Shown here piece by piece: positions 29,928-35,063 of a stretch of DNA of 48,634 nucleotides. Origin of the DNA: Gemmatimonadota bacterium. GTDB lineage: Bacteria; Gemmatimonadota; Gemmatimonadetes; Longimicrobiales; Gaopeijiaceae. The first letter of the stretch is position 1. Every line of letters starts with the position of its first letter. Location of the stretch: assembly GCA_009692205.1 (NCBI GenBank), contig SHZR01000004.1, positions 1-48,634 on the forward strand, given 5' to 3'. Made by a program: the position numbers and the translations under genes. Below the pieces are notes generated by a model, which saw only the letters and a program-made list of their open reading frames with translations, made no database searches and had not been told where the DNA came from.

Positions 29928-30881
29928 CTACCGTCGCCAAGTCCATGTGTCCCGCGCGTACGTCTCCGCTTCCAGCCGATCGGCGGCCTCGCGCTCCACG
30001 GCGTCGAGCTCGCCGCTGCCCCATCTCCCGCCCAGCTCGGTCCGGAGACTCTCTGCCACCGCCCCCGCCACTTCGTCAATGCTCACGTCGCCTACCAACT
30101 CCCGCAGCCCGATCGGTCCGTGCGACGGGACGCGGCTCTGGTCGACCCCGCCGAGCGGTCCCTGGTCCCCCTCGAGCAGGATCGAGCCGTGCTGGAGCAG
30201 CGCGCTTCCGATGCGGGCCTGCGCGCTCCCGACGAGCTTCCTACCTGCCGCTACGATCTCACCTGCGGCCGGCGCCTGGAAGCACGGCCCCGCGTCCGGC
30301 GCGAGCGAGCGAGTGCCGCTCGCCACATCGACCGGTGCGCCGAGCGAGCGAAGCGCCTGGGCCAGGGCGTGATTGATACGGAGATAGGCCGCGCGCACGC
30401 CGCCCCACCCGTCGATCGGCGCCACCACCGCGTAGGTCAGCTCGCGGTCGTGGAGCACCGCGCGGCCACCTGTGGGGCGCCGCACGACGTCGAAGCCCGA
30501 GCCGCGCATCGATTCGATCGCGTACGCGGCCGCCGGCTCATTCCTACCGAGCGAAAGCGTCGGCCGCTCCCATCCGTAGAGTCGCACCACACCCTCGTTG
30601 CCGTGGCCCGCGCCGATCGCGTCCGCCAGCGCATGGTCGAGCGCCATGTTGCGCGCGCCGGAGTGGACCTGGTACGAGAGGTGTCGCCAAACCAGCGGCG
30701 GAGCGGGCTTATGCGACGGTTCCGCGGGAAATGAATTTTCAGCTGAAAATTCCGCCGCCGCCGTCACCCTCTCGCGAAACGCCGGCGGGTTCTCGCCGAA
30801 GAACGGGTCGATCACGAGGTGCGTGCCATCGTCGGTCTCGATCGAGCACGTCGCGTGGCCGTGGAAGGTCACTTTCGCCAT
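29928..30881 (-). CDS. Chimera: truncated UPF0173 hydrolase N-terminus fused to lipoate-protein ligase A domain
   Basis: 317 residues in a single frame. Residues 1-34 (KVTFHGHATCSIETDDGT, then LVIDPFFGENP) match the beginning of UPF0173-type metallo-beta-lactamase-fold hydrolases, but the zinc motif HxHxDH that should follow about 20 residues later is absent. From about residue 63 (PPLVWRHLSYQVHSGARNMA) the sequence is an LplA/LipB-type ligase: RPTGGRAVLHDRELTYAV, the Lys in AGRKLVGSAQARI, and QHGSILLEGD. The seam is a low-complexity stretch containing a perfect palindrome. The ligase part looks complete, so lipoate or octanoate attachment activity is plausible; GcvH (35064-35450) is a possible acceptor. 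No separate ATG, GTG or TTG start for a free ligase is visible with a good binding site. Confidence 0.85.
   Translation of the reverse strand: MAKVTFHGHATCSIETDDGTHLVIDPFFGENPPAFRERVTAAAEFSAENSFPAEPSHKPAPPLVWRHLSYQVHSGARNMALDHALADAIGAGHGNEGVVRLYGWERPTLSLGRNEPAAAYAIESMRGSGFDVVRRPTGGRAVLHDRELTYAVVAPIDGWGGVRAAYLRINHALAQALRSLGAPVDVASGTRSLAPDAGPCFQAPAAGEIVAAGRKLVGSAQARIGSALLQHGSILLEGDQGPLGGVDQSRVPSHGPIGLRELVGDVSIDEVAGAVAESLRTELGGRWGSGELDAVEREAADRLEAETYARDTWTWRR
30733..30752. repeat. Perfect 20-bp palindrome at the fusion seam
   Basis: GAATTTTCAG joined to CTGAAAATTC is self-complementary over 20 bp and AT-rich inside GC-rich DNA. It is in frame within the chimera, encoding EFSAEN, exactly between the hydrolase fragment and the ligase domain. 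It could be a recombination scar, a transcription factor site or a palindromic insertion element. Confidence 0.85.
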
Positions 30882-31011
30882 GGCCCCAACGTAGCATCGC
30901 CCCCCTTATGCCGCCCTTACGTCGGCGGAGGTTGCCGGGAGCGCGCAACGATCCGACCATGCACCGTAGGGCGCGTCGTTCAGGACCATCCACGGGGATT
31001 GGCGCGGACGC

Positions 31012-31533
31012 ATGACCGAGCCCGGCACCGACCAGTTCAGGCTGCACGTGTTGGGGACGCCGGACCTTCGGTCGCCCGACGGCCGGAGGCTCTCGTCGGT
31101 CCTCTCCCAACCCAAGCGCCTCGGTCTACTCACCTACCTCGCGCTCTCGCCCGCCCCCGTGTCGCGCGCGTCGGTCTTGGCCCTGTTCTGGCCCGACAGC
31201 GACGAGGGGCGGGCCCGGAACGCCCTCAGCCAGGCCGTCTTCCACCTGCGGCGCTCCATCGCCGAGGATGTCGTGCAAGGGGCGGAGGGGGCTCGCCTTT
31301 GGGCACCGCCCGAGCACCTCTGGTGCGACGCACGGGAGCTGCTGACGCCCGACGAGCCCGCGGCCGAGCTGATCGAGGCAGCCGCACGCGGCTTCCTGGA
31401 GGGATGGAACGCCGATGAGTCCCGGCCGCTCCAAGAATGGCTCGACACACAGCGCCGGTTCGGGTCCTGGCAGAGACGGGGGGCCGCTAGGTCGGGGCCT
31501 CGGGGCCCCCTGACTCAGTCCTTCGCCCTGTAG
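31012..31533 (+). pseudogene. Truncated BTAD-type transcriptional activator
   Basis: 173 residues. The N-terminal winged helix of AfsR/DnrI-type regulators is clear (FRLHVLGTPDLRSPDGRRL, then LTYLALSPAPVSRASVLALF and ARNALSQAVFHLRRSI). The BTAD repeat domain begins with FLEGWNADESRPLQEWLD and then stops being family-like after about residue 148. The usual TPR-rich remainder is missing; the frame ends at 31533, overlapping the convergent VapC gene by 19 nt. Either the gene was cut when the toxin-antitoxin pair arrived or it is a DNA-binding-only fragment. The divergent position suggests it once controlled the lplA/opp operon, which is inference. Confidence 0.7.
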
Positions 31534-31889
31534 CGGACGCCGTCCATTCCCTCGAAGTCGGCGTCCTGTGTCCAAAGCTCCGCCCCGTGCGCTCGGGCAG
31601 TCGCCAACAGGATGCTATCCGCCATGGCGAGCTGCGTCGCCACGCTCAGCTCGGCCGCCTCCAGCGCGAGCCCATCGTCGAGGGCCACGACGACGCCGGC
31701 GCGCATCGCGGCTACCACGCTCAGGGCATCCTCCCTTCCAATGTGTCTGAGCATGTGACGATACACTTCGAAGAGGCTGAGCGAGGGCACGAGCGGCGCC
31801 TCAGGGCTCTCGATGGGTTCGCGGAAGAAGTCGGCGTTGTCCCCTCCCGACAAGTACTCGATCCAGCCACTCGAGTCGACGACGTTCAC
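31515..31889 (-). CDS. PIN-domain ribonuclease toxin (VapC family)
   Basis: 124 residues starting MNVVDSSGWIEYLSGG. PIN residues are Asp in VVDSSGW, Glu in SLSLFEVYRHM, Asp in MADSILLATARAHGAELWTQDADFE. This VVDSSxWIE subgroup pairs with AbrB/MazE-fold antitoxins, as seen here. The ATG overlaps the antitoxin stop by 4 nt. The 3' end is convergent with and overlaps the truncated BTAD frame. Predicted to cleave RNA when free of antitoxin. Confidence 0.9.
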   Translation of the reverse strand: MNVVDSSGWIEYLSGGDNADFFREPIESPEAPLVPSLSLFEVYRHMLRHIGREDALSVVAAMRAGVVVALDDGLALEAAELSVATQLAMADSILLATARAHGAELWTQDADFEGMDGVRYRAKD

Positions 31890-32089
31890 AGCCGATCAGC
31901 CTCGCGCTCGAGGGGCGGGAGCGAGGGGTAGCGCCCTTTGAAGGTCTCGATCGGCTCGACCGGAACCAACTCCACGCGCGTCCCGATCGCGAATGCCTGG
32001 ACCTTCTGCCCCGCTCGAATCCCCAGCTTGTCTCGGACATCCTTGGGAATGACAACCTGGAACTTGGGCGACACCGTCACCACGGTCAC
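31886..32089 (-). CDS. AbrB/MazE-fold antitoxin (VapB)
   Basis: 67 residues from GTG at 32089, with GGAGG six nt upstream. VSPKFQVVIPKDVRDKLGIR followed by GQKVQAFAIGTRVELVPV is the swapped-hairpin AbrB fold that binds DNA as a dimer. The tail (EPIETFKGRYPSLPPLERE) is the toxin-binding strand. It neutralises the overlapping PIN toxin and is expected to repress its own promoter; a 7-bp inverted repeat lies just upstream. Confidence 0.92.
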   Translation of the reverse strand: MTVVTVSPKFQVVIPKDVRDKLGIRAGQKVQAFAIGTRVELVPVEPIETFKGRYPSLPPLEREADRL

Positions 32090-32158: not shown

Positions 32159-35026
32159 CTACGCCTCGTACGCCTCCACCGGCGGGCACGCGCACACCAG
32201 GTTCCGGTCGCCGTACGCGTTGTCGATACGCCGCACCGCCGGCCAGAACTTGGACTCGCGCGTCCACGGCGCGGGATAGGCCGCCTTGACTCGCGAATAG
32301 GGATGCGTCCACTCGTCCGCCGTCACCATGGCGGCGGTGTGCGGCGCGTTCTTGAGCGGGTTGTCGGCGCGGTCGAGGATGCCGACCGCGACCTCGTCGA
32401 TCTCGGCCCGGATCGAAGCGAGCGCGTCGCAGAAGCGGTCGAGCTCCGCCTTCGACTCCGACTCCGTGGGCTCGATCATGAGCGTGCCGGCCACTGGGAA
32501 TGAGACCGTGGGTGCGTGGAAACCGTAGTCGATGAGTCGCTTGGCGACGTCTTCCTCGGTGATCCCCGTATCCTTCTTGAGCGCGCGCAGGTCGACGATG
32601 AACTCGTGCGCCACGAGCCCGTGCGGCCCGCGGTACAGGATCTCGTAGTGACGCTCGAGCCGCTTCGCCATGTAGTTGGCGTTGAGGATCGCGATCTCCG
32701 AGGCCCTCCGCACGCCGTGACTTCCCAGCATCGCGATGTACGCCCACGGTACCGCGAGGATGCTCGCGCTCCCCCACGCCGCTGCCGAAACCGGTCCGAT
32801 CCCCTTCGCTCCACCGACCTTCTGCTGGGGGTGTCGCGGCAGGAACGGCGCGAGCTTCGCGTTGGCGCAGATGGGCCCCATGCCTGGCCCCCCGCCCCCG
32901 TGCGGGATCGCGAATGTCTTGTGCAGGTTGATGTGGCACACGTCCGCACCGTAGTCGCCGGGGCGTGCGAGGCCGACCTGCGCGTTGAGATTCGCGCCGT
33001 CGAGGTAGACGAGCCCGCCCCGCGCATGCACGAGGCGGCACGCCGCGGTGATGCCCTCCTCGAAGACGCCGTGCGTGGAGGGATACGTCACCATGAACGC
33101 CGCGAGCGCCCGCGAGTGCTCCTCCGCCTTGGAGGCGAGGTCACCGAGGTCGATCGTGCCGTCCGCGGTGCTCCTCACCACCACGACCTGCATGCCCGCC
33201 ATCACCGCGCTCGCCGGGTTGGTGCCGTGCGCGGACGCCGGGATCAGGCAGACGTTGCGATGTCCCTGGTCGCGGCTCTGGTGGTACGCGCGGATGACGA
33301 GCAGGCCGGCGTACTCGCCCTGGGCGCCCGAGTTCGGCTGGAGCGACGTCGCGGCGAAGCCGGTGATCTCGGCCAGCCACTCCTCCAGGTCCTTGAAAAT
33401 GACCCGGTAGCCCGCCGCCTGGTCGATCGGCGCGAACGGGTGCAGCCGGCCCATCTCGGGCCACGTCACCGCGGCCATCTCGCTCGTCGCGTTCAGCTTC
33501 ATCGTGCACGAGCCGAGCGCGATCATGCTCGTGTTGAGGGACAGGTCCTTCGCCTCGAGGCGGTGCAGGTACCGGAGCATCTCCGTCTCGGAGTGATACC
33601 GGTGGAAGACCGGGTGCTCCAGGTACGGCGTGCGACGCCCCGCCCAGTCCGGCAGCATCGGCGCGCCCCCGCGCTCGCTGAACGAGCGGGCGCTGAAGTC
33701 CGGCGCCACCCCCTCGTTGAACACGGCGAAGAGGTCGTCCACGTCCTCGGGCTTAGTCACCTCGTCGAGCGCGATGCCCACGGTCCCGTCTCCGAAGTCG
33801 CGGACGTTGATCCCGAGCGCCAGCGCCCGTGCCAGGACCTCTCCCGTGTCGTCGTCGGGCCGCACGCGCAGGGTGTCGAAGAACACGGCGGTCAGCAGCT
33901 CATGCCCGAGCAGGCCGAGACCGGCGGCGAGCGTGCCCGTGAGCTCGCGCACCCGCTCGGCGATCCTGCGGAGCCCCTCCGGACCGTGATAGACCGCGTA
34001 CACGCCCGCCATGATCGCGAGCAGCACCTGCGCCGTGCAGATGTTCGACGTGGCCTTTTCGCGGCGGATGTGCTGCTCCCGCGTCTGGAGCGCCATGCGG
34101 AGAGCGGGGTTGCCGTCGGCGTCCACCGACACACCGATGATCCTACCTGGAAGCTTGCGCTTGAACGCCTCGGAGGTGGCCATGAACGCGGCATGCGGGC
34201 CGCCGAAGCCCATCGGCACACCGAAGCGCTGCGAGTTGCCGATCGCGACGTCGGCGCCCCAGACGCCGGGCGGCGCGAGGAGCGTAAGTGCGAGCAGATC
34301 CGTGGCGGCGATGACCGTGGCGCCGAAGACCTTGGCCCGCTGAGCGAAGTCCCGGTAGTTGAGCACGCGACCGTCGGTGGCCGGATACTGCACGAGCACG
34401 CCGAACACAGCGAAGGTCAGGTCGAAGGTCTCGTGGTCGCCGACCACGACCTCGACGCCGAGCGGCTCGGCGCGCGTGCGTACGACCTCGATCGTCTGCG
34501 GGTGGCACAGCTCCGAGACGAAGAATGTCGTCGCGCCTTCCCTCGCCTCGCCCAGCGCCAGGTGCATCGCCTCGGCCGCCGCGGTCCCCTCGTCGAGCAG
34601 TGAGGCGTTGGCGATCGCGAGGCCCGTCAGGTCGATCACCATCGTCTGGTAGTTGAGCAGCGCCTCCAGGCGGCCCTGCGCGATCTCGGCCTGGTAGGGC
34701 GTATACTGCGTGTACCAGCCCGGGTTCTCCATGATGTTCCGGAGGATCACCCCGGGAACGTGCGTGTCCGCGTAGCCCATGCCGAGGAACGAGCGGAAGA
34801 CCCGGTTCTTTGCCGCCAGCGCGCGCAGCCGCGCGAGCAGCGCCGCCTCGGTGAGCGGGTCGGGCAGATCCAGGTCGCCTCGGAACCGGATCGACTTCGG
34901 CACCAGCTCGTCGACGAGCGCGTCCAGCGAGGGATAGCCGACTGTGGCGAGCATCGCCGCGACATCGGCCTCGTCGGGGCCGATGTGGCGTGCTGCGAAG
35001 TCCGGGTGGGCGTCGATGCGGCTCAC
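32159..35026 (-). CDS. gcvP: Glycine dehydrogenase (decarboxylating), P-protein, single chain
   Basis: About 955 residues, the full-length single-chain form of the glycine cleavage P-protein. It decarboxylates glycine with PLP and transfers the aminomethyl group to lipoyl-GcvH. Family landmarks: [18 protein letters not shown] near the N-terminus, [11 protein letters not shown], the C-terminal [20 protein letters not shown] with the PLP lysine, and [16 protein letters not shown] near the end. GTG at 35026 is chosen; an in-frame TTG at 35041 is the alternative and neither has a clear ribosome binding site, so coupling to gcvH (stop at 35064) may matter. GcvT is not in the window. Confidence 0.97.
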
Positions 35027-35063
35027 AGGTGCACCGCGCAACGCTGGGTACAGGAGGGCTCGG

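Follow-up and report, generated by a model that had tools for sequence, protein, structure and literature searches.

In a genome of the phylum Gemmatimonadota, the start of a UPF0173 metal-dependent hydrolase gene is joined in frame to a lipoate ligase domain, which would attach a vitamin-like cofactor, and the join carries a copy of a short palindrome that is dispersed through related genomes. The fusion probably arose by an in-frame deletion in the common ancestor of this genome (G000) and its closest relative (G003), at one site of a dispersed palindrome system linked to HNH nuclease genes. A broader proposal, which we hold tentatively and at a little under even confidence, is that the DUF222/13E12 HNH nucleases of Gemmatimonadota may co-evolve with short perfect palindromes specific to each clade, as a genetic system of two parts. 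The nuclease would recognise the palindrome, copies of the palindrome would be seeded within the nuclease gene, next to it and across the genome, and the action of the nuclease would remodel host genes, this fusion being one case. The features considered here lie in a window of 48,634 nucleotides, the whole stretch of DNA that was analysed:

29928..30881, minus strand: chimeric ORF of 317 aa with an ATG start, made of a UPF0173 stump, a linker and a lipoate ligase family domain
30780..30881, minus strand: codons 1-34 of a UPF0173 metal-dependent hydrolase gene, left as a remnant that provides the ATG (85% identity and NF001911)
29928..30689, minus strand: lipoate-protein ligase family domain (LplA-B_cat), residues about 65-317, without a start codon of its own
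30733..30752, no strand: perfect palindrome of 20 bp, GAATTTTCAGCTGAAAATTC, read in frame as EFSAEN and belonging to the dispersed family
30718..30732, no strand: second, degenerate palindrome (minus strand ATTTCCCGCGGAACC) adjoining the first; its CCGCGG core contains the point where homology with the sister genome begins
31012..31533, plus strand: ORF pointing away from the chimera; part of it (31007-31330) has a conserved counterpart at the corresponding position of the sister genome (72% DNA identity with L003 4057-4380)
32159..35041, minus strand: long ORF reading, from its sequence only, as glycine dehydrogenase GcvP, the upstream neighbour

The initial annotation had described the ORF as a UPF0173 start of 34 residues followed by a lipoate ligase, and both parts were confirmed. 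Residues 1-33 are 85% identical to the intact UPF0173 protein of a genome of the same genus (G001), and NCBIfam NF001911 covers residues 3-34 only. The HxHxDH metal site lies downstream in the UPF0173 proteins of relatives and is missing from ORF 29928-30881, as had been noticed; judged by the metal-binding HxHxDH and a full-length MBL fold, the chimera falls outside UPF0173. LplA-B_cat matches residues 76-274 (E 6e-26), and scores of 92.1 bits against PF21948 (cut-off 27) and 46.9 bits against PF03099 (cut-off 21) place the catalytic domain within the ligase family. The ligase domain also matches a PDB ligase (E 2.6e-07) and retains RRPTGG..LHD and RKLVGSAQ, and it appears intact. As to whether it is a true LplA ligase or a LipM-type octanoyltransferase, the chimera did not reach the NCBIfam equivalog cut-offs; a GPCF cysteine could, we presume, suggest the LipM type. 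The last in-frame start codons upstream of the ligase core are ATG1, GTG4, GTG23 and GTG39 in this genome and codons 1 and 31 in the G003 fusion. Because none stands just before the core, translation of the ligase has to begin in the stump or linker, which bears out the earlier suggestion that it borrows the start of another gene.

The arrangement from which the fusion could have come is preserved in relatives. From the same genus outward, the ligase gene is immediately preceded by a co-oriented UPF0173 gene, often across a spacer of <100 bp. Most family-level relatives with a ligase match have a UPF0173 start of like orientation just upstream, and at 15 loci the copies were confirmed to be intact and full-length. 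The two genes are thus neighbours in relatives, the point on which the initial annotation had proposed to check its reading. The remainder of the hydrolase is absent from both G000 and G003, and a search of G000 found only distant MBL-fold paralogues. G003 carries the same locus on VGVR01000005.1, a Gemmatimonadetes metagenome assembly separate from that of the window. Its fusion is a 412-aa ORF that starts with MTIAFHGYAG, has GAGGAG just upstream of the ATG, and continues through a linker into the ligase. It is equivalent to the fusion of the window and in frame, but its linker differs: it contains four palindromes, all in one reading frame, and a 42-bp (14-codon) tandem repeat (L003 4849-5016) that is present as a single unit in the window. 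The hydrolase remnant in G003 amounts to only about 9 codons and is weak taken alone. DNA homology between the two genomes covers 2.7 kb at 77%, ends at window position 30727, within CCGCGG, the core of the second palindrome, and picks up again upstream, beyond the fusion start, at 31007-31330. No Pfam hit was obtained for the ORF at 31012..31533 (plus strand). A pair of genes for a PIN-domain toxin and a MazE-type antitoxin occupies 31515-32089 (minus strand), between the GcvP ORF and the fusion. In another relative, G012 (L024), the hydrolase gene is also missing and an unfused ligase gene directly follows a GcvP-like gene. No viral relatives of the fusion were found.

The initial annotation had also reported a perfect 20-bp palindrome in frame at the seam. 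The palindrome is present, with GAATTTTCAGCTGAAAATTC at 30733-30752 read as EFSAEN; the degenerate palindrome beside it went unmentioned in that annotation, as did the limits on its length as evidence and its recurrence elsewhere. Of 60 order-1 Markov shuffles of the window, 13 contained a palindrome of 20 bp or more, so a length of 20 bp is unremarkable by itself. The seam palindrome is one copy of a dispersed family linked to DUF222-HNH genes. Five places in this genome, including the seam, match it within 3 mismatches, against 0 for a control pattern. Chance was rejected as the whole explanation, since it accounts for the length but not for the recurrence across genomes.

Palindromes of the form GTTTC[AC]GC[GT]GAAAC, numbering up to 40 copies per genome, are scattered across the taxonomic family and parts of the phylum, and a control of equal composition is near zero. 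Matches to TTTCMGCKGAAA were found in 24 of 39 relatives, with up to 41 per genome, while the reversed control gave one hit in one genome; GTTTCMGCKGAAAC is present in 75 of the 394 genomes of the phylum. The 158 collected sites have the core CAGCTG (84), CCGCGG (69) or a mixture (5), and the scarcity of mixed cores indicates that the two arms of the palindrome change together. Copies were found in intergenic DNA, in tRNA-gene arrays and inside genes. The cysS genes of G000 and G003 (L081, L090) have a palindrome at the same place, read as VSAET, which replaced linker sequence without a change of length relative to relatives; simple insertion is therefore not supported in cysS. In most copies there was no repeated flanking element beyond the palindrome. 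The tRNA-gene arrays of three genomes have palindromes in different spacers (L064 1490-1522, L072 1261-1309, L089 1501-2060), and one such spacer measures 33 nt with a palindrome in G011 and 5 nt without one in G003. A search of the open-access literature, with subscription papers outside its scope, found no published description of these palindromes or of DUF222 with palindromes.

The occurrence of the palindrome follows that of genes with the DUF222 domain (PF02720), which is found in 79 of the 394 genomes. Gene and palindrome occur together in 62 genomes, the palindrome only in 13, DUF222 only in 17 and neither in 302 (Fisher p 3e-43); the corresponding counts within family f1 are 51, 5, 6 and 38, and a within-genus CMH test with both palindrome searches combined gave p 0.005, all of these being co-occurrence tests that do not model the tree fully. 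In genus g6, the single DUF222 genome has 6 palindromes and the ten others have <2 each. As 125 of the 158 sampled sites lie outside HNH ORFs and 33 inside, the link is not merely one of copies within those genes. Twenty HNH genes were picked by DUF222 score rather than by palindrome; 11 of them contain the motif, and some also have copies just outside. The HNH copy on contig C9 of G000 has both domains (DUF222, 93.7 bits with a cut-off of 24.4; HNH, 27.6 bits with a cut-off of 21.4), and no transposase domain was found by Pfam in the palindrome-linked DUF222-HNH gene. Several palindrome-rich genomes of genus g80 (G086, G088, G092), and likewise G387 and G388, have no DUF222 hit; either these are drafts from which repeats drop out or the gene has been lost. 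Conversely, some DUF222 genomes (G218, G164, G005, G144) lack scattered palindromes of both searched versions. As it appears from sequence, the link between HNH genes and palindromes is a correlation. One DUF222-HNH gene of G000 (L049/L054, C56:91846-91876) contains a 19-bp tandem palindrome duplication that shifts the reading frame. Plasmid relatives of the HNH gene amount to three records, all actinobacterial and too few to judge; on the Rhodococcus plasmid NZ_CP050126.1 (L272:3805), CGTCCCCGCGGGGACG lies 109 bp upstream of a DUF222-type HNH gene, possibly the same system in Actinomycetota.

We then inspected clades in which DUF222 genomes lack the main palindrome. In genus g80, the same motif position of the HNH genes holds GTTCCCGCGGGAAC (ACGTTCCCGCGGGAACGT) and is translated as VPAGT rather than VSAET; further copies lie just outside the coding region. 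The version in the HNH genes of genus g5 is GTTACCGCGGTAAC (CGTTACCGCGGTAACG). It was set beforehand that these versions should be scattered in their own clades and near absent from T-type genomes. A scan with the non-T pattern found 29-70 copies in about ten g80 genomes (high counts 60, 59, 45, 29, 34, 70, 33, 32, 30, 57 and 36), where the identity of the scattered version comes from four g80 HNH loci read directly. In g5 there were 16 and 11 copies in two DUF222 genomes, the matches listed being of A type, and 0 in two genomes without DUF222. T-type genomes had mostly 0-1 non-T copies, and controls were near zero in the scanned genomes. Constraint on the protein motif VSAET was rejected as an explanation for the palindrome within HNH genes, since palindrome-free HNH genes encode the same residues with GC-rich codons and g80 keeps its palindrome though the protein reads VPAGT.

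Homology also breaks at palindromes elsewhere. Loci L106 and L108 are homologous over 700 bp (85%) up to the palindrome and have no homology beyond it; the homology of L101 and L141 (693 bp at 90%) is one-sided in the same manner, as is that of L102. In L135, the 3' half of an HNH gene has unrelated DNA next to it, and the junction lies exactly at the palindrome of that gene. These are examples from palindrome-selected loci with no matched control and do not give a rate. At L102 (G010 C65) there are three palindromes, and for two of them the adjoining sequence is shared over about 150 bp to one side but not to the other; it contains a hairpin GGTTC...GAACC, which suggests that a longer repeat ends at the palindrome.

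In the sequence of events that we propose, an in-frame deletion between the UPF0173 and ligase genes in the common ancestor of this genome and G003 would have taken out most of the UPF0173 gene with its stop codon, along with the spacer between the genes and the beginning of the ligase gene, and the ligase would thereafter have been translated from the start of the hydrolase. The likeliest and most economical mechanism would be that the palindrome is the site at which a DUF222/13E12 HNH nuclease binds and cuts; repair of the break would lead to short-range loss, duplication or joining and leave palindromes at DNA junctions, and the fusion deletion may be one such outcome. The initial annotation had offered either an in-frame deletion or palindrome-mediated recombination. 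Gene adjacency, loss of the hydrolase remainder and the homology breaks at palindromes agree with it, while the causal role of the palindrome is something we infer.

We weighed several other explanations. A metagenome-assembly error at the seam is very improbable: the window does come from a 61-contig draft genome, and repeats cause misjoins, but the frame is kept, the genome has no other copy of the hydrolase remainder and the separate assembly VGVR01000005.1 has an equivalent fusion. The loss of a segment by the assembler, the one finding that would have spoken against the initial annotation, is unlikely for the same reason, that the closest relative was assembled separately and has the fusion without the hydrolase; an assembly artefact was thus rejected. 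Taken by itself, the fusion is an ordinary kind of event. It shares with in-frame deletion fusions of adjacent operon genes the co-directional neighbours, the loss of stop codon and spacer and the kept frame; it differs from them in that the start alone of the first gene survives, the join carries a dispersed palindrome and two species keep the fusion with different linkers. An ordinary deletion with a coincidental palindrome at the join would fit the commonness of bacterial gene fusions by deletion and the chance palindromes of at least 20 bp in the shuffled windows. We nevertheless regard it as unlikely, because the genome has further copies of the exact palindrome core, where the control has none, and G003 has four copies in the same linker.

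About equally unlikely is that a transcription factor or nucleoid protein binds the palindromes and has HNH genes merely among its targets. Perfect dyads of 16-20 bp with paired changes on both arms resemble protein-binding dyads, and intergenic copies, such as those in tRNA arrays, are numerous, but many others lie deep inside coding genes, and the copies track the presence and version of the HNH gene and both flank and lie within HNH genes. A somewhat stronger competitor, though still improbable, is a selfish element similar to REP/RAYT, in which the palindrome is itself mobile and, carried by a transposase or the HNH protein, entered the hydrolase gene before the deletion. Copies flanking HNH genes as REPs flank RAYT genes, the dispersed and clade-specific versions and the tandem 19-bp duplication in the HNH gene of this genome would agree with such an element. 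The palindromes are, however, perfect and almost loop-free, unlike most REPs; replacement in cysS left the length unchanged, and most copies have no repeated flanking element.

The nuclease-linked deletion that we favour can be set beside known systems. Rickettsia palindromic elements are in-frame palindromic repeats within protein-coding genes, inserted as segments of 100-150 bp. The palindromes described here share the in-frame position in coding genes but are 14-20 bp long, and the cysS copies of G000 and G003 brought no lengthening insertion. REP sequences with their REP-associated tyrosine transposases (RAYT/TnpA-REP) are dispersed short palindromes as well (PMC2817692, PMC3116915, PMC8266576). 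Both systems have short, dispersed, clade-specific palindromes that flank a linked gene for a DNA-processing enzyme, and here too the version of the palindrome follows the clade of the linked gene. In contrast to REP/RAYT, the linked gene encodes a DUF222-HNH nuclease and not an HUH tyrosine transposase (HUH Y1), the palindrome is a perfect dyad of 14-20 bp found also inside coding genes and the nuclease gene itself, and the copy number is lower (1-70). The dispersed palindrome family tied to DUF222-HNH genes is thus REP/RAYT-like in layout without being an HUH transposase system. The linked genes belong to the same protein family as 13E12/REP13E12 (DUF222-HNH), a repeat family of mycobacteria cited in PMC10589994, and are likewise multi-copy and repetitive. 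No palindrome partner for mycobacterial 13E12/REP13E12 is described in the open-access literature that was searched.

To our knowledge, the Pfam domain of the DUF222/13E12 HNH proteins, a repetitive family, is still without a function. A palindrome sequence that changes in step with the HNH clade provides a concrete candidate recognition site for these proteins. If our interpretation is correct, Gemmatimonadota would have a REP-like system of dispersed palindromes built on an HNH nuclease, which would give rise to gene fusions and rearrangements in its host genomes, and the lipoate-ligase fusion would be a fixed example common to two species.
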